NCBI RefSeq assembly: GCF_020733635.1 | Contig: NZ_JAJFZL010000001.1 | Span: 868,001 to 932,000 of the forward strand | Direction of reading: 5' to 3' | From: Nocardia spumae | GTDB lineage: Bacteria; Actinomycetota; Actinomycetes; Mycobacteriales; Mycobacteriaceae | Length of the DNA stretch: 64,000 bases | In this document: piece by piece, positions 48,344 through 55,624 of the stretch | How the letters are laid out: every line of letters starts with the position of its first letter | Numbering within the stretch: position 1 is the first letter of the stretch | Notes under the pieces: model-generated | Database searches by the model: none | The model's input: only the letters and a program-made list of their open reading frames with translations | What the model was told of the DNA's origin: nothing | Position numbers and translations under genes: made by a program

Positions 48344-51300
48344 TCAATACACATCGCGCACATAGCGTTTCTCGGCGATGAGCTGCTTCTTGAACGCCAG
48401 TGCGGCGTCCTCGTCGAGTTTGCCGTGAATCCGGGCGATGGCGAGCAGGGTGTCGTCCACATCGCGGGCCATGCGCGCGGCGTCACCGCAGACATACAGG
48501 TGGGCGCCGTCGCGCAGCCACGACCAGAGTTCGGCGCCGTGCTCGATCATGCGGTGCTGCACGTAGATCCGCTCACGCTGATCGCGCGAGAAGGCGAGGT
48601 CGAGGCGGGTGAGGAAGCCGGAGCGGAACATATCCTCGAGTTCGGCCCGGTAGTAGAAATTGTCCCGCGCGTGCTGATCGCCGAAGAACAGCCAGTTGCG
48701 GCCGCGGCAGCCCAGCGCGCGACGTTCGTGCAGGAATCCGCGAAACGGTGCGATCCCGGTACCGGGGCCGACCATGATCATCGCGGTGGCGGGATCCAGC
48801 GGCGGCCGGAAATGCGGTGCGCGCTGCAGGAATACCGGCACACCGCCGGACTCGTCGCGATCGGCGAGATAGGTGGAACAGACCCCGCCCCGGGGATCCT
48901 CGGCCGCGCCGTATCGCACGACTCCCACGGTGAGCTGCACCTCGTGCGGACTCACCAGCGGACTCGACGAGATCGAATACTGTCGCGGTTGCAGCTTCTT
49001 CAGCACCGACAGCCATTCCACCAGATCGGCGCGCACCGGGAAATCGCGCAGCACGTCGACCGCGTGCCGATCCCACAGATACCGGTCCAGCTCGTTGCGA
49101 TTGTCGCGACGCAGCAGTTTCGCCAACTGCTGGCTGGGATTGTGGCCGGCGATGAAGGTCAGCAGATCACCGCTGATCTTGGTGATATCGAAATGGCTGC
49201 GCAGCGCCGATTCCAGCGGCACATCGCGCCCGTCGACGTCGACCGACCGGCTGCCGTCGAGTCCGGTGGCGCCCAGCCAGTTCCGCACCGCGGTCGCACT
49301 GTTGGCCGGCCACACCCCCAGACTGTCGCCCACCTCGTAGCCGGCCTCCAGTCCGCTCAGATCGAATCCGAACTGCCGCACCTCCTTCGGCGAGGTCGCG
49401 CCGGACAGCAGCTCGTTGCGCACCAGCGGGGCGAGCACCGGAGCCTGACGGGTGAACGGCGCCGGCGCCGATCGGGTGGTCTTCGCGGGCGCGGGCGCGA
49501 CACGGAGGCCGGTACGGTCGAGCACCGCGACTCCGGCGGTTGCCGCGGGGGTCGGTCCGCCGCCGCTCGGCGGATCGGTGTCCTCGGCGCCCAGGGCGGC
49601 CAGCACCGCCGCGGTCCACGCGTCGGACAGCTCGTGGTGATCGGGTTCGCTGTCCACCCGCTCCAGCAGACGTGTCGCACCCCGTTCGGACAGCAGCCGA
49701 TCGAGGGCGCGGCCGTAGCCGCAGAAGTCGTCGTAGGAGGAATCACCCAGCGCGAAGACCCCGTACCGCACTCCGGTGTGGCGAGACGCGCTCTCCCGCA
49801 GCCGGTCCCAGAAATCGGCGGCGTTGTCGGGCGGGCCACCGTCGCCGAAGGTACTGGTGATCAGCAGCATGTCCCCGGTCAGCTCGGCCGGTTCACACGC
49901 GTTCATCTCGACCAGCCGGGGGGTATGCCCGTGTTCGGCGAGGGCGGCCGCGACCGCGGCAGCCAGCTCTTCCGCGGTTCCGGTCTGCGAGGCCCACAAC
50001 ACGGTGACCGGCCGGCCCGCCGGACCCGCCTCCGGGGCCGCCGCGGCGTCCTCGGAGGCCCGGGAGTACATACCGGCCAGTAGTCCGTCGATCCACCAGC
50101 GGCTGCGTTCGGACAGCGGCGCCGACTCCGGCAGCACCGGCTGGCCCCGCACCGGAAGTGATTGCAGGGCAGCCAGATAACCGCCCAGATAGATCCGTTC
50201 GGATTCACTGAGCGTGGGTGCCGGTCCGGTATCGAGACCGAGCATCGCCGCGAGCGGATGCGGGGCCTCGGCCGGAGTGTTCGCCGGCTCCGGGGCGGGT
50301 TCGGGTCGCGGTACCGGCGCGACCCGGCGCAGGGTCACCGCGGCGGCCTTGAACTCCGGCTGTAGCGAATCCGCGTCGACGGCATCGTTGGTGACGGCGT
50401 TGATGGTCAGGTATTCCCCCTGCTCGTCGTTCCAGTGGAAGGGTGCGAAACACGCGCCCGGCCGCACCCGATCGGTGATCTGCGCCGGCAGGACGGCTCG
50501 CCCCCGGCGAGAGGCGATTTCGATCTGATCCCCGGGCCGCACCTCCAGCCGTCGCGCATCCTCGGGATGAATCTCGAGAAACGGCGCCGGGTTGAGTTTG
50601 TTGAGTTTGGCGACCCGGCCGGTTTTGGTCATGGTGTGCCATTGATGTTGGACGCGACCGGTATTGAGGATGAACGGATAGTCGTCGTCGGGCATCTCCG
50701 CGGGCGCCATATGCGGCCGGGGCCAGAACACCGCCCGCCCGCTCGCCGTGGGAAAGGCCAGTTCGTCGGTGCGATAGCGAATCGGATTGCGCCGCTGTGC
50801 CGGATCGGGGCACGGCCACTGCATCGGGCCTTCCCGCAGCGCGGCATAACTCATTCCGCGCAGGTCGTATCCGGTCTTCGGATTCGCGAAGCGACGGATC
50901 TCGTCGAAGATCTCGGCGCTGGAATCGTAATCGAATCCGGTGAACCCCATGGCGGTCGCGATCCGCGCGATCCACTGCCAATCCGGCATGGCCTCGCCCA
51001 CCGGATCCACCGAATGCCGCAGCAGCGTCACATCGCGCTCGGAATTGACCATCACGCCGTCGGATTCGGCCCACAGCGTCGCGGGTAACAACAGATCGGC
51101 GTAGGCGTTGGTCGCGGTATCGCGATAGACGTCCTGGGTGATCACCAGCTCCGCCGCTTCCAGGCCCGCGATGACCGTTTTACGATTCGCGACCGAGGCC
51201 ACCGGGTTACTGCAGATGATCCAGCACGCCTTGATGGTCCCCTCGGCCAGCGACCGGAACATCTCGATGGTGCCCCGTCCGGATTCGGCGCGAATGGATC

Positions 51301-52450
51301 CGTCCGGCAGGCCCCATTCGGTTTCGACGAAGCGGCGATCGTCGGCGACCAGCGCGCTGCGCTGACCGGGCAGTCCCGGGCCCATGTAGCCCATTTCCCG
51401 GCCGCCCATGGCATTCGGCTGGCCGGTCAGCGAGAACGGGCCGCTACCCGGCCGGCAGATCGCGCCCGTGGCCAGATGCAGATTGCACAGGGCATTGGTA
51501 TTCCAGGTGCCGTGGGTGGACTGGTTGAGGCCCATCGTCCACAGACTCGTCCATTCCCCGGCCGCGCCGATCCAGGCGGCGGCGGTACGAATATCGTCCT
51601 CCGCCAGTCCGGTGATCTCGGCGACGCGGGCGGGCGGATAGTCGGCGAGGAAATCCGGCATCGCCGCCCAGCCCTCGGTGTGCGCGGCGATGAACTCCTG
51701 GTCGATATCACCGTTTTCGACGAGCAGATGCAGCAGTCCGTTCAGCAGCGCCAGATCGGTGCCGGGACGGATCTGCAGGAAAAGATCTGCGCGGGCGGCG
51801 GTTTCGGTGCGACGCGGGTCCACCACGATCAGTCTGGCCCCGGCCTTGAGCCGATCGGCCATGCGCAGGAACAGAATCGGATGACAATCGGCCATATTCG
51901 AGCCGATGACGAAGAACAGATCCGCGCGATCGAGATCGTCGTAGGATCCCGGTGGCCCGTCGGCACCCAGCGACTGTTTGTAGCCGGTACCCGCGCTCGC
52001 CATGCACAATCGCGAATTGGATTCGATGTGGACCGTGCGCAGATAACCCTTGGCCAGCTTGTTCGCCAGATATTGCGCCTCGAGCGACATCTGCCCTGAG
52101 ACATAGAGCGCGATCGCGTCGGGGCCGTGCTCGTCGGCGATCGCGCGCAGCCGCTCGGCCGCATCCCGCACGGCCTGCTCCACCGGCAACGCCACCGGCT
52201 CCTGGCCACGCCGGGGGCGGTGCAGGGGAGCGGTCATACGGCCGGGAGCCCGCATCAGCTCCAGGTGGGTGGCGCCCTTGGTGCACAGCCGCCCGGCGTT
52301 CACCGGATGCGATGTGTCCCCGCTCACCTTGGCGATGACCGGTGCGCCGGAGTCGTCGCGGGCGGTCCGCACGCTGATTCCGCAGCCCACACCGCAGTAC
52401 GAGCACGCGGTCCTCACGGTGCTCGGTGAACTCTCGGCGGCGCTCGACAC
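48344..52450 (-). CDS. Assimilatory nitrate reductase fused to a CPR-type flavoprotein reductase
   Basis: A 1368-residue fusion. Residues 1-700: molybdopterin oxidoreductase with an N-terminal [4Fe-4S] site, cysteines 16, 19, 23 and 56 (CSYCGVGC ... GRLCTKG). Residues ~811-950: flavodoxin-like FMN domain (VLWASQTGTAEELAA). Residues ~1010-1240: FAD domain (RQYSISSSPLVS near 1154). Residues ~1220-1368: NADPH domain (GPGTGIAPFRGFLHERRALG near 1225; DGAHLYVCGDA; end YVRDVY). One chain could therefore take electrons from NADPH through FAD/FMN to the Mo centre, reducing nitrate to nitrite. Comparable fusions are known in mycobacteria. GTG 52450 has only a weak site; GTG at codon 12 is the alternative. 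No nitrite reductase or transporter is present. Confidence 0.92.
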   Translation of the reverse strand: MSSAAESSPSTVRTACSYCGVGCGISVRTARDDSGAPVIAKVSGDTSHPVNAGRLCTKGATHLELMRAPGRMTAPLHRPRRGQEPVALPVEQAVRDAAERLRAIADEHGPDAIALYVSGQMSLEAQYLANKLAKGYLRTVHIESNSRLCMASAGTGYKQSLGADGPPGSYDDLDRADLFFVIGSNMADCHPILFLRMADRLKAGARLIVVDPRRTETAARADLFLQIRPGTDLALLNGLLHLLVENGDIDQEFIAAHTEGWAAMPDFLADYPPARVAEITGLAEDDIRTAAAWIGAAGEWTSLWTMGLNQSTHGTWNTNALCNLHLATGAICRPGSGPFSLTGQPNAMGGREMGYMGPGLPGQRSALVADDRRFVETEWGLPDGSIRAESGRGTIEMFRSLAEGTIKACWIICSNPVASVANRKTVIAGLEAAELVITQDVYRDTATNAYADLLLPATLWAESDGVMVNSERDVTLLRHSVDPVGEAMPDWQWIARIATAMGFTGFDYDSSAEIFDEIRRFANPKTGYDLRGMSYAALREGPMQWPCPDPAQRRNPIRYRTDELAFPTASGRAVFWPRPHMAPAEMPDDDYPFILNTGRVQHQWHTMTKTGRVAKLNKLNPAPFLEIHPEDARRLEVRPGDQIEIASRRGRAVLPAQITDRVRPGACFAPFHWNDEQGEYLTINAVTNDAVDADSLQPEFKAAAVTLRRVAPVPRPEPAPEPANTPAEAPHPLAAMLGLDTGPAPTLSESERIYLGGYLAALQSLPVRGQPVLPESAPLSERSRWWIDGLLAGMYSRASEDAAAAPEAGPAGRPVTVLWASQTGTAEELAAAVAAALAEHGHTPRLVEMNACEPAELTGDMLLITSTFGDGGPPDNAADFWDRLRESASRHTGVRYGVFALGDSSYDDFCGYGRALDRLLSERGATRLLERVDSEPDHHELSDAWTAAVLAALGAEDTDPPSGGGPTPAATAGVAVLDRTGLRVAPAPAKTTRSAPAPFTRQAPVLAPLVRNELLSGATSPKEVRQFGFDLSGLEAGYEVGDSLGVWPANSATAVRNWLGATGLDGSRSVDVDGRDVPLESALRSHFDITKISGDLLTFIAGHNPSQQLAKLLRRDNRNELDRYLWDRHAVDVLRDFPVRADLVEWLSVLKKLQPRQYSISSSPLVSPHEVQLTVGVVRYGAAEDPRGGVCSTYLADRDESGGVPVFLQRAPHFRPPLDPATAMIMVGPGTGIAPFRGFLHERRALGCRGRNWLFFGDQHARDNFYYRAELEDMFRSGFLTRLDLAFSRDQRERIYVQHRMIEHGAELWSWLRDGAHLYVCGDAARMARDVDDTLLAIARIHGKLDEDAALAFKKQLIAEKRYVRDVY

Positions 52451-52610: not shown

Positions 52611-53315
52611 TCACCCCAGTTTGTAACCGCGGTGCAGGGCGACGATGCCGCCGGTCAGGTTGCGCCATTTCACCGACGACCAGCCGGCATCGGTGAGCCG
52701 CATCGCCAATTGCCGCTGATTCGGCCAGGCCCGGATCGACTCCGCCAGGTAGACGTAGGCGTCGGGGTTGCTGCTCACACCCTGCGCGACCTTGGGCAGC
52801 ACCCGCATCAGGTATTCCATGTACACCGTGCGGAACGGGCCGAACACCGGAGTGGAGAACTCCGCCACCACCAGGCGGCCGCCGGGCTTGGTGACCCGCA
52901 GCATCTCCCGCAGCGCCTGATCGGGGTCCGATACGTTGCGCAGCCCGTAGGAGATGGCGACGGCATCGAAGGAGTCGTCGGCGAACGGCAGTGCCGTGGC
53001 GTCGCCGTTGACCATCGGGAGCCGCCGGAACCGGCCCGCCTCCAACATGCCCTTGGAGAAGTCCAGAGCCAGGCACCAGGCGCCGGACTTCGCGAATTCG
53101 GCGGTGGAGACACCGGTTCCGGCCGCCAGATCCAGCACTCGTTCCCCCGGGCGCAGGGCCAGCGCCCGGCGTGTGGCCCACCGCCAGTAGCGGTCCTGGC
53201 CGCCGGTGAGCACGGTGTTGGTCAGGTCGTACCGCTTCGCGACCCCGTCGAACATGGACGCGACCTCATGGGGTTGCTTGTCCAGTGAGGCCCGAAACGA
53301 CTCTGTCTTCGCCAC
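52611..53315 (-). CDS. menG: Demethylmenaquinone methyltransferase (UbiE/MenG)
   Basis: SAM enzyme adding the ring methyl in the last step of menaquinone synthesis. The 234-residue product has the UbiE signature block [24 protein letters not shown], the SAM loop VLDLAAGTG (near residue 61) and the [10 protein letters not shown] motif. GTG 53315 gives the length of the mycobacterial enzyme (Rv0558, recalled). Its start lies inside the 3' end of the erm gene (94-bp overlap, same strand). Confidence 0.94.
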
Positions 53316-54151
53316 GGATGTGACCCTAGCGCGGCCCGCCGCGGTGGGGGACGCGGGTCGGTGCGCGCTCGGTGCGCGGCCTCGGGAATCAGATGGTCGA
53401 AGATTCGCAGCCAAGCCCCGGGCGGAACCAGGCCGACGGTGAGGTCACGGGAGATCCCCGCCGCCGCACAGGCTCCGCGGACCGCCCCGGCCGGATGCGC
53501 CCGCCGCAGCGACGCGGCCAGCGATCCGCCGACTCCGGAGAAACCGAGCTCCACCAGCTGCTGATACTCGGTTCGAAACCGCTGGGGCAGTAGCGGTTCC
53601 GGCCGTCGTCGCAGCCGCAGCACGGCGGCGTCCACCGCGGGGCGCGGATGAAAGGCGGTGCGGCTCACCCACGGCCCGAGCGAGGGCTCGGTCCAGGGCC
53701 AGTGCGTGATCGACAGTTTCGACCAGCGGCCGTAGTCACCGGAGTGTTTGCGGGCGAACTCCGATTGGGTCAACAGTGTGGCCGATCGCAGCCGGGGAGC
53801 CGCCAGGCACCACCGCACGATATCCGTGCCGATCGCGAACGGTATGTTCGCGACCACCGAGAACGGCTCACCGGGTGCGGTCACCTCGCGAAAATCACGG
53901 TGGTAGCAGCGTATTCGATCGTCATCGGCGTAGTGCCGCCGCAACCGGGCGGCATAGTGCGGATCCTTCTCGTAGGCCAGCACGCGCCGGCTCACCGTCA
54001 GCAGCTGCCGGGTGAGCATGCCGGCCCCGGGGCCGACCTCGAGCACCAGATCCCGGGAGGTGACGGCGGATTCGGCCACGAGCATGCGGGCCACGCGAGG
54101 ATCGATGAGGAAATTCTGGGACAGGGTTTTTCGGGTACGTGAACGGGACAT
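53222..54151 (-). CDS. erm: Erm-type 23S rRNA adenine N6-methyltransferase
   Basis: Methylates A2058 of 23S rRNA, giving macrolide/lincosamide/streptogramin B resistance. The 309-residue product has [10 protein letters not shown], the SAM loop [14 protein letters not shown] (residues 37-50) and the catalytic NIPF motif (102-105). ATG 54151 has CGGAGGA upstream. After about residue 255 the sequence becomes Arg/Pro/Ser-rich ([16 protein letters not shown]), unlike the conserved family C-terminus, and runs 94 bp into menG. It is preceded by a leader peptide and WhiB7-like promoter. Confidence 0.93.
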
Positions 54152-54154
54152 GGT

Positions 54155-54194
54155 GTCCTCCGGACGGAGCGGTCGAATCAGAACCGGTGATTCG
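54155..54194 (-). promoter_or_regulatory. Hairpins around the erm ribosome site
   Basis: On the transcript, CGAATCA and TGATTCG (54174-54194, loop of 7) form a perfect 7-bp stem just before the ribosome site. Downstream, CTCCGTCCGGAG folds over the Shine-Dalgarno CGGAG. GAATC further upstream (in TGAATCG) can compete for pairing. This is compatible with translational attenuation. Confidence 0.45.
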
Positions 54195-54333
54195 CCCGGA
54201 CCCGTGCTCGCGGCACACCACATCCCGCGGAATTCGCACCGGGGACAGTCGCCCGATACAGCGCTGTCGATTCAGCGGCAGGTGGCCGCTCCGGTGCGGA
54301 GAGGTAGCTCCGGAATCGGAGATGGGGTGGCGC

Positions 54334-54408
54334 TCAGTGCGCACCGGGGGTCCGGGCCGTCATGCGCAGCCGCACGAAATACGCGCCGAACGCGCACGTC
54401 CCGTTCAT
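54334..54408 (-). CDS. RLR-class leader peptide of erm (24 residues)
   Basis: ATG 54408 lies 7 bases after GGGAAG. The product is MNGTCAFGAYFVRLRMTART plus PGAH. The Arg-Leu-Arg at residues 13-15 is the arrest motif of the ErmD-type leader class, in which a macrolide-bound ribosome stalls. The in-frame ATG 54423 coincides with the predicted transcription start, so a leaderless 29-residue version is possible. The stop lies 182 bases before the erm ATG. Confidence 0.75.
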   Translation of the reverse strand: MNGTCAFGAYFVRLRMTARTPGAH

Positions 54409-54430
54409 GCCTGGACTTCCCATACCGTCG

Positions 54431-54467
54431 ACGCTAGAGCGCGGCGGCACCGGTGTCGACCGAATTT
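54431..54467 (-). promoter_or_regulatory. WhiB7-like promoter of the erm leader
   Basis: Minus strand: TCGACA (54454-54459), 17-bp spacer and TAGCGT (54431-54436). An AT-rich AAATT block (54463-54467) lies 3 bp upstream of the -35, the hallmark of WhiB7-dependent promoters. It is between mgtA (stop 54485) and the leader ORF. Confidence 0.6.
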
Positions 54468-54484
54468 CGAGCCGGCCGGTGTGT

Positions 54485-55624
54485 TCAGGCGGTGCGATGC
54501 AATAGCTGCTGCCCGCCGATGACATCGTGATAGTGGCCCATCAGTTCGGTGCAGATCGCGGGCCAGGTGCGGTGCAGGACGGATGTGCGCGCGGCACGGG
54601 CGAATCGCGCGCGCGACACCGGATCCCGCAGGGCGGCAACGGCACTCGGCAGCAGTTCGGCGAAGCGATCGACCGGCAGCAGATAACCGTTGCGGCAATG
54701 GGCGATCAGATCGCGAGGGCCGCCCGCGTCGGGCCCGATCACCGGAACACCGCACGCCAGCGCCTCCTGGACACCCTGGCAGAAGGTCTCGTGCTCACCG
54801 GGGTGCACCATCAGATCCAGGCTCGCGTAGGCCCGGGCCAGTTCGGCGCCACCGAGTTCGCCGGTGAAGACCGCGGTCGGCAGCAGCCGGTGCAGCCGGG
54901 TGCGTTCGGGACCGTCACCGACCACGACCAGCCGGATACCGCGATCGTGGGCGAGGGCCGCCAGCCGCTCGACATGTTTCTCCGGCGCCAGCCGGCCGAC
55001 GAATCCGACGACCAGCCGATTCCCGTCGGCCCATTCGTCGTGCAGGCGCTCGTCCCGGGCCGAGGGCGTGAACCGCACCGTATCCACACCGCGGGCCCAC
55101 CGGTGCACGCGCGTGATGCCGTGCCGGGCCAGATCCTCCATCGCGGCGGAGGAGGGCGCCAGAGTGCGCGCCGCCCGATTGTGGATACGCCGGGTCCAGG
55201 CCCATGCCGCCCGCTGCGTCGCGCTCAGCCCGTAACTGGCCGCGAACCCGGCCACATCGGTCTGGTACACCGCGACCGCGGGCAGATCCAGGCGCAGCGC
55301 CGCCGCCGCGCCACCGGCGCCCAGCAGGAACGGGGAGGCCAGATGCACCACGTCCGCGTCGAACTCCTCGATCGCGCAGGTGAGCAGCGGTTGTGGCAGC
55401 CCCACCGGTAGCGAGCTGATCCGCGGCACCATCACCGCCGGCACCCGGATCACCGGGAAGCGGCCGTGGGAGCGGGCGGCCGGTGGCCGGCCGCGCGGCG
55501 TATCCGGCGCGATGACCAGGGCATCGTGCCCGTTGCGGTCCAGATGAGCCAGGACCTGCAGGACGGAGTTCACGACACCGTTCATATTCGGCAGAAACGA
55601 TTCGGAGACGATCGCTACACGCAC
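54485..55624 (-). CDS. mgtA: GDP-mannose-dependent alpha-mannosyltransferase (MgtA-like)
   Basis: A 379-residue GT4 glycosyltransferase with the N-terminal [21 protein letters not shown] nucleotide-side loop. In the C-terminal half it has [15 protein letters not shown] and the E-x7-E donor motif [18 protein letters not shown]. Family members mannosylate glycolipid acceptors in lipomannan-type synthesis; the acceptor is not readable here. GTG 55624 (start VRVAIVSES) matches the Rv0557 length (recalled). The C-terminus is basic. Confidence 0.9.

Follow-up and report, generated by a model that had tools for sequence, protein, structure and literature searches.

Macrolide tests of Nocardia and of rapidly growing mycobacteria mislead in part because erm is inducible. 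erm(41) is presumably a WhiB7 regulon erm gene of mycobacteria. In the published view, the erm genes of Firmicutes are controlled by leader peptides and those of mycobacteria by WhiB7 (PMC4128351; all sources are cited here from the accessible parts of their text). In the leader ErmDL, the ribosome is arrested with Leu7 and Arg8 of an Arg-Leu-Arg (RLR) motif in the P and A sites, and the motif is largely dispensable for erythromycin and essential for telithromycin (PMC8298421). The motif alone is therefore no predictor of induction by erythromycin. A leader peptide before the gene is also mentioned for Corynebacterium erm(X) (PMC3350403). The accessible part of PMC11264731 makes no mention of Nocardia, RLR or WhiB7, and our literature search, with most subscription journals beyond reach, found no description of a Nocardia erm leader or of a leaderless R-x-R leader.

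Here, we analyzed an erm locus of Nocardia spumae within a 64,000-nucleotide stretch of DNA (hereafter the window, whose numbering is used throughout). Judging from its sequence elements, this erm is likely inducible at two levels, namely through WhiB7-driven transcription and through a leaderless R-L-R translational attenuator.

Gene Arrangement and Locus Sets

The gene order on the minus strand was a glycosyltransferase ORF (55666-54485), the promoter and leader, erm (54151-53222), and menG, which spans 52611 to about 53313-53414. The host genome measures approximately 7.07 Mb.

53222 to 54151, minus strand: erm, 23S rRNA adenine-N6-methyltransferase, 309 aa

The Erm protein scored 234.6 bits against the NCBIfam model Erm23S_rRNA_broad, above the curated cut-off of 212, and 295.7 against the narrower ErmE/H/O/R model, below its cut-off of 320. 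Relatives at E ≤ 1e-30 were found in 103 of the 150 genomes of the genus. The last ~50 residues form an unusual basic, proline-rich tail, whose coding region overlaps the menG start in another frame (53222-53414); most relatives align with Erm only to about residue 255, and L003 (80% identical) aligns to residue 309. Elsewhere in the window, the translation of a 1368-aa ORF (48344-52450) appeared by eye to combine molybdopterin nitrate-reductase-like and flavodoxin-reductase-like parts.

We parsed 124 loci, comprising the window, 30 loci of the genus (the window counted once), the named loci L032-L045, and 80 further stretches; L132 and L133 gave no match in parsing. The orthologues (clade A, start CCCATGTCCCG) provided 87 aligned loci, and the paralogues (clade B, a second Nocardia erm family; L111-L131 and L134-L138) provided 26 used loci. 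After the removal of nine named duplicates and the addition of three variant-start loci, clade A contained 81 non-redundant loci, with L012 and its duplicate L038 omitted because their start was unreadable. Of these, 79 loci were anchored on a nucleotide consensus. In the flanks of 31 distinct clade A loci, the glycosyltransferase adjoins erm in 7 and menG in 8, indicating that erm and its leader are placed elsewhere in the remaining loci.

Promoter Elements

The promoter of the window is laid out as AAATT, CGG, TCGACA, a 17-nt spacer, and TAGCGT, and consists of the following elements.

54463 to 54467, minus strand: AT box AAATT, a WhiB7-type element by sequence, 3 nt before the −35
54454 to 54459, minus strand: −35 hexamer TCGACA, by sequence; position 1 is T in 73% and position 3 is G in 81% of 79 loci
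54431 to 54436, minus strand: −10 hexamer TAGCGT (TANNNT), conserved in 79/81 loci

An earlier reading of the sequence alone had proposed exactly this arrangement, TCGACA-17-TAGCGT with AAATT three bases before the −35, and we found each part at its assigned position. A generic promoter scan with a threshold of 9 matches out of 12 left this promoter off its list. It would therefore not stand out in a single sequence and is credible because it is conserved: the AT box, scored as an AT run of 4 located ~32 nt before the −10, was present in 77/79 orthologues, in comparison with 47/740 background windows between leader and erm. In a pattern search of the host genome, AAAWTCGGTYG-N17-21-TANNNT-N6-8-ATG occurred once, at the erm locus.

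The host genome also encodes WhiB7 (L144; G000:C1:5599343-5599489), with the GVWGGEIF motif and the AT-hook tail RKRPRGRPRK. Upstream of the whiB7 gene, we detected AAAAAT-AGG-TTGTGC-18 nt-TAGGGT, the same layout as at the erm promoter. The AT element and the presence of WhiB7 in the genome suggest that erm is a member of the WhiB7 regulon, and its transcription would then depend on WhiB7.

Leader ORF and R-x-R Motif

Directly downstream of the −10 hexamer lies a short ORF.

54334 to 54423, minus strand: leader ORF of 29 residues, MGSPGMNGTCAFGAYFVRLRMTARTPGAH, predicted to be leaderless; a gap of 7 nt separates the −10 from its start codon
54364 to 54372, minus strand: Arg-Leu-Arg codons, residues 18-20, the predicted stall site

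We scanned the clade A loci for TANNNT upstream of an in-frame leader start at a spacing of 4-10 nt, taking the spacing nearest to 7; in three loci, the choice was between two or more candidates. The hexamer was found 6-8 nt before the start in 79/81 loci (57 at 7, 12 at 6, and 10 at 8 nt), in comparison with 21 of 1620 block-shuffled copies of the loci at 6-8 nt and 52 of 1620 at 4-10 nt. The two loci missed by the scan (L105 and L109) showed TANNNT-7 nt-ATG and an R-x-R ORF when sought without the anchor. The start codon was ATG in 69 and GTG in 10 of the 79 loci, the leader length ranged from 25 to 40 residues, and the first residue of R-x-R fell at positions 15-19. The motif itself was present in 79/79 loci (63 RLR, 9 RPR, 5 RQR, 1 RRR, and 1 RIR), a count partly conditioned by the anchor, which itself contains the R-x-R codons. 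A short ORF with a conserved +X+ motif before erm is one of the marks of an RLR-type (ErmD class) leader attenuator, and this locus has such an ORF. A strict-pattern de novo search of the host genome for further leaderless R-x-R leaders found the erm locus alone.

The sequence-only reading had placed a 24-codon leader at 54408-54334 with RLR at codons 13-15. The ORF and its RLR were confirmed; the start and length require correction, as the conserved start is 54423, which makes the leader 29 residues long and places RLR at 18-20. We regard it as highly improbable that translation begins at the internal ATG 54408 with a Shine-Dalgarno sequence of its own, despite the GGAAG that precedes this codon and the GGAGG before the internal start in L005, L007, and L008. 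The internal position carries ATG, GTG, or TTG in 43/79 loci, versus an outer start 6-8 nt past the −10 in 79/81 (79/79 in the anchored set, by construction of the set). Given this difference, a leaderless ORF is the best reading of the leader, and its translation is predicted to begin at 54423.

Predicted Base Pairing between the Leader and erm

We identified the following pairing elements between the leader and erm.

54341 to 54357, minus strand: lead3, the leader 3' half, pairing with dist3 (helix AS); duplex −28.7 kcal/mol, z −4.5 in the window
54194 to 54208, minus strand: dist3 (AGCACGGGTCCGGGC), the lead3 partner, with complementarity to the erm start as well in most relatives (helix S); GGCAUGGGUCCGGGC in 58/79 loci
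54174 to 54194, minus strand: CGAATCA/TGATTCG hairpin; arms 54194-54188 and 54180-54174, 7 bp, 7-nt loop
54158 to 54169, minus strand: CTCC/GGAG hairpin over the erm Shine-Dalgarno, CTCCGTCCGGAG, self-complementary; serves the erm ATG 54151
54215 to 54228, minus strand: GCGGGATGTGGTGT, 14 nt complementary to the erm start 54156-54143, the window's form of the sequestering helix; pair probabilities 0.89-0.98 in free RNA
54395 to 54407, minus strand: leader start stretch, by sequence 13 nt complementary to the erm start region 54152-54140

The lead3 segment lies downstream of the RLR codons, and dist3 is located just 5' of the GAATC hairpin. In 78/79 loci, the best dist3 partner window in the leader or linker lay no more than 8 nt from lead3, and the sole exception was L003, the nearest relative of the window. 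The mean duplex energy was −25.9 kcal/mol and the mean z was −3.6. In an alignment of 78 distinct rows, lead3 and dist3 were paired in 95.3% of 1243 cells, and slid registers reached at most 54%. Double changes that preserve pairing occupied 27 cells, in comparison with a mean of 9.1 and a maximum of 21 in 200 permutations, although the sequences are kin and not independent, so that these counts overstate the significance. The helix of the window has an altered lower part, GCAC with GUGC, and L104 carries another variant. Furthermore, lead3 contains a stop codon in L090 and L100 and its reading is altered in L087, and all three loci keep the nucleotide complement to dist3. These observations indicate that lead3 is kept as RNA.

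Helix S, between dist3 and the erm start, was paired in 96% of 846 cells with one double-change cell, and is nearly invariant. The window differs from most loci in that its erm start is masked mainly by 54228-54215 instead of dist3.

The sequence-only reading had named two hairpins as the attenuator, the 7-bp CGAATCA/TGATTCG before the erm Shine-Dalgarno and the self-complementary stretch at 54169-54158. Both exist as placed, and both they and the RLR motif are conserved in the orthologues. The GAATC hairpin was paired in 95.8% of 545 cells; among the 78 distinct rows, 46 close it with an A-U pair and 9 with a G-C pair. For the Shine-Dalgarno hairpin, 87.2% of 376 cells were paired, with zero double changes. 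Their role as the main switch passes to another helix, since the best supported one, with compensatory changes, is lead3 (54357-54341) with dist3 (54208-54194). A search of 53900-54700 against Rfam gave no match up to E 1.

As a separate candidate switch, we considered pairing of 54407-54395 with 54152-54140. In the orthologues, 85.6% of its cells were paired, there were no double changes, and the permutations were not beaten; we consider it incidental.

Distribution across the Mycobacteriales

An order-wide search yielded Erm at E ≤ 1e-24 in 113/397 genomes. In 40 divergent loci, a subset of those listed in this search, we looked for the combined pattern of AT box, TANNNT, a start 5-9 nt on, and a short R/K-x-R/K ORF. 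It was present in 25/40 loci, in comparison with 4/800 shuffles; of the other 15, 7 failed only the strict AT box and 8 were without the pattern. The sequence-only reading had inferred the combination of an RLR leader with a WhiB7 promoter at one chromosomal Nocardia-like erm. The combination is real, and it is not peculiar to one locus, as the layout is widespread.

The clade B loci carry AAATT, TANNGT, 7 nt, and ATG, and their leaders end in F-I-R-x-R-x-A-R-A-L-A-R. Several Nocardia genomes contain two erm genes of different families, each with its own R-x-R leader (e.g., L134-L138). Eight genomes list two erm places, one of which, G093, represents two fragments. In family f15, a leaderless-spaced R-x-R ORF preceded 22/24 loci, a count made without a shuffle control. 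The f15 leaders in genus g25 and its kin (L173-L186, L225, and L226) are leaderless in layout and end in A-R-P-R-V-R-R-P-A-L, an R-P-R variant of the motif. In Glycomyces salinus (L042), the whole module is present, and by eye an A-U pair replaces a G-C pair in the lead3-dist3 helix.

In genus g2, an Erm(38)/(55)-like gene was present in 19/248 genomes, with an R-x-R leader in 17/19 and an AT box in 15. Of 10 scanned proteins, from g2 or related to those of g2, one scored above the Erm(55) model cut-off (594 versus 525 bits) and the Erm(38)-like ones scored below; based on the Erm(55) match, g2 is probably Mycobacterium. One g2 locus (L256) retains the leader start and R-x-R codons and is missing the stretch between leader and erm, as though the attenuator had been deleted.

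Complementarity of the lead3 type to the downstream region was found in 76/79 Nocardia clade A loci, 26/26 clade B loci, and 8/9 loci of genus g47, and was weaker in g25 and kin (8/13). It was seen in 0 of the 7 testable (of 16) Erm(38)/(55)-like loci and in 2/23 other Mycobacteriales loci. We therefore propose the helix plan for groups other than those with short leaders. By eye, the Erm(38)-like alignment shows arms downstream of the leader stop codon that might play this part.

From these patterns, one may propose that chromosomal erm genes of the Mycobacteriales, including the Erm(38)/Erm(55)-like ones, share a single sensor of ancestral style, a WhiB7-box promoter whose transcript begins at the AUG of a leaderless R-x-R arrest peptide. 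Two signals would then be needed, general ribosome stress sensed via WhiB7 and a drug in the tunnel sensed via the leader, and the mycobacterial erm genes would represent a leaderless form of leader control, not an exception to it. We regard this generalization as evenly poised between right and wrong.

Proposed Mechanism and Alternatives

WhiB7, made under ribosome stress, would activate the SigA-type promoter via the AT box before the −35. The transcript is predicted to start at the leader AUG or within 1-2 nt of it, and the 29-codon leader would be translated as a leaderless mRNA. Without the drug, ribosomes would traverse the leader and cover lead3, allowing dist3 (in the window, also 54228-54215) to pair with the erm Shine-Dalgarno and start, and erm would be off. 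When a macrolide or ketolide occupies the tunnel, the ribosome may stall at Arg-Leu-Arg, just before lead3. The free lead3 would then pair with dist3 over 14 bp, thereby releasing the erm start.

The folding calculations reproduced this scheme in part. Placing a ribosome over lead3 raised the average pairing between dist3 and the erm start from 0.07 to 0.20 and brought that between lead3 and dist3 down from 0.66 to 0 (79 loci). The value of 0.66 means that the lead3-dist3 helix is on average already dominant in free RNA, and the off state would therefore need ongoing leader translation or kinetics. With the Leu codon in the P site, the mean opening cost of the erm start decreased from 11.39 to 10.73 kcal/mol (−0.65; 79 loci); at this position, it was lower by more than 1 kcal/mol in 30/79 loci and higher in 12. 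The decrease was larger for a ribosome placed close to the leader start (9.49 kcal/mol, −1.89) and when the whole 5' part of the leader was covered (−2.56 kcal/mol). The switch was not recovered when the window's own RNA was folded: the opening cost rose from 12.2 to 16.5 with the stalled ribosome and reached 19.4 for a ribosome 10 codons further along. With the stalled ribosome, the masking helix decreased from 0.98 to ~0.45, and the leader start paired at 0.53 instead. Because the energetic effects are weak, or opposite in the window, it is the topology and the covariation, rather than the energies, from which we infer the switch and its direction.

A switch acting on transcription is unlikely. 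According to this explanation, untranslated RNA would invite Rho/NusG-dependent termination unless a stalled ribosome changed the folding, as at whiB7; mycobacterial whiB7 combines a uORF with premature termination (PMC4128351, PMC13236596). The linker from the leader stop to erm (75-267 nt) would be long enough for termination. However, a terminator scan of 53900-54700 found no terminator-like site, and the conserved elements extend through the erm Shine-Dalgarno and start codon, which better fits control of translation.

WhiB7 might also be the sole regulator, the short ORF being a by-product of a leaderless transcript, as M. tuberculosis erm(37), a member of the whiB7 regulon, is a notable exception to leader-controlled erm genes (PMC4128351). 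We consider this very unlikely. R-x-R recurs near the leader end in 79/79 Nocardia clade A loci (partly conditioned by the anchor), 22/24 f15 loci, 32/40 divergent loci, and 17/19 Erm(38)/(55)-like loci, in peptides that are otherwise variable, and lead3 covaries with dist3, which likewise argues against regulation by WhiB7 only. Finally, a stalled ribosome that mainly shields the transcript from decay, with base pairing secondary, is very improbable here: the expression of one erm has been reported to track mRNA stability independently of ribosome stalling (PMC5118997), but the compensatory changes in lead3-dist3 and the near-invariant dist3 argue for a pairing role.

Comparison with Known Systems

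The earlier interpretation of this locus as an inducible erm is supported in outline, with the leader start, the switch helix, and the spread amended. We read the combination as a WhiB7-boxed and predicted leaderless form of the RLR attenuator. If both layers act on one transcript, induction would depend on which macrolide or ketolide stalls the ribosome at R-x-R.

The locus resembles Bacillus ErmD/ErmDL in having Arg-Leu-Arg in a short leader before erm and competing hairpins that would control the erm start. Arrest at RLR has been published for ErmDL with telithromycin and erythromycin (PMC8298421), whereas the Nocardia stall site is predicted. In contrast to ErmDL, in which RLR occupies residues 6-8, the Nocardia leader is longer and predicted to be leaderless, follows a WhiB7-type promoter, and uses its post-RLR codons as a helix arm.

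With the mycobacterial erm genes of the WhiB7 regulon, this erm shares an AT-rich element just 5' of a SigA-like −35 (PMC3905903). erm(37) is described as an exception to uORF control (PMC4128351), whereas the Nocardia erm appears to have both layers. Similar to whiB7/wblC, in which ribosome stalling in the uORF induces the gene (PMC13236596), a short ORF precedes an antibiotic-response gene. The whiB7 uORF has a Shine-Dalgarno sequence and a T-tailed terminator hairpin (PMC4128351), and the erm leader differs in having neither.

In mycobacteria, polycysteine uORF attenuators (Canestrari 2020, via PMC9031893; also cited in PMC13236596) are leaderless short ORFs in which ribosome traffic controls the downstream gene, as predicted here for the erm leader. 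They respond to the supply of cysteine, whereas the Nocardia leader would use R-x-R to detect a drug in the exit tunnel. If our reading is true, the erm leader would be a drug-responsive leaderless regulatory ORF beside the cysteine-responsive ones.
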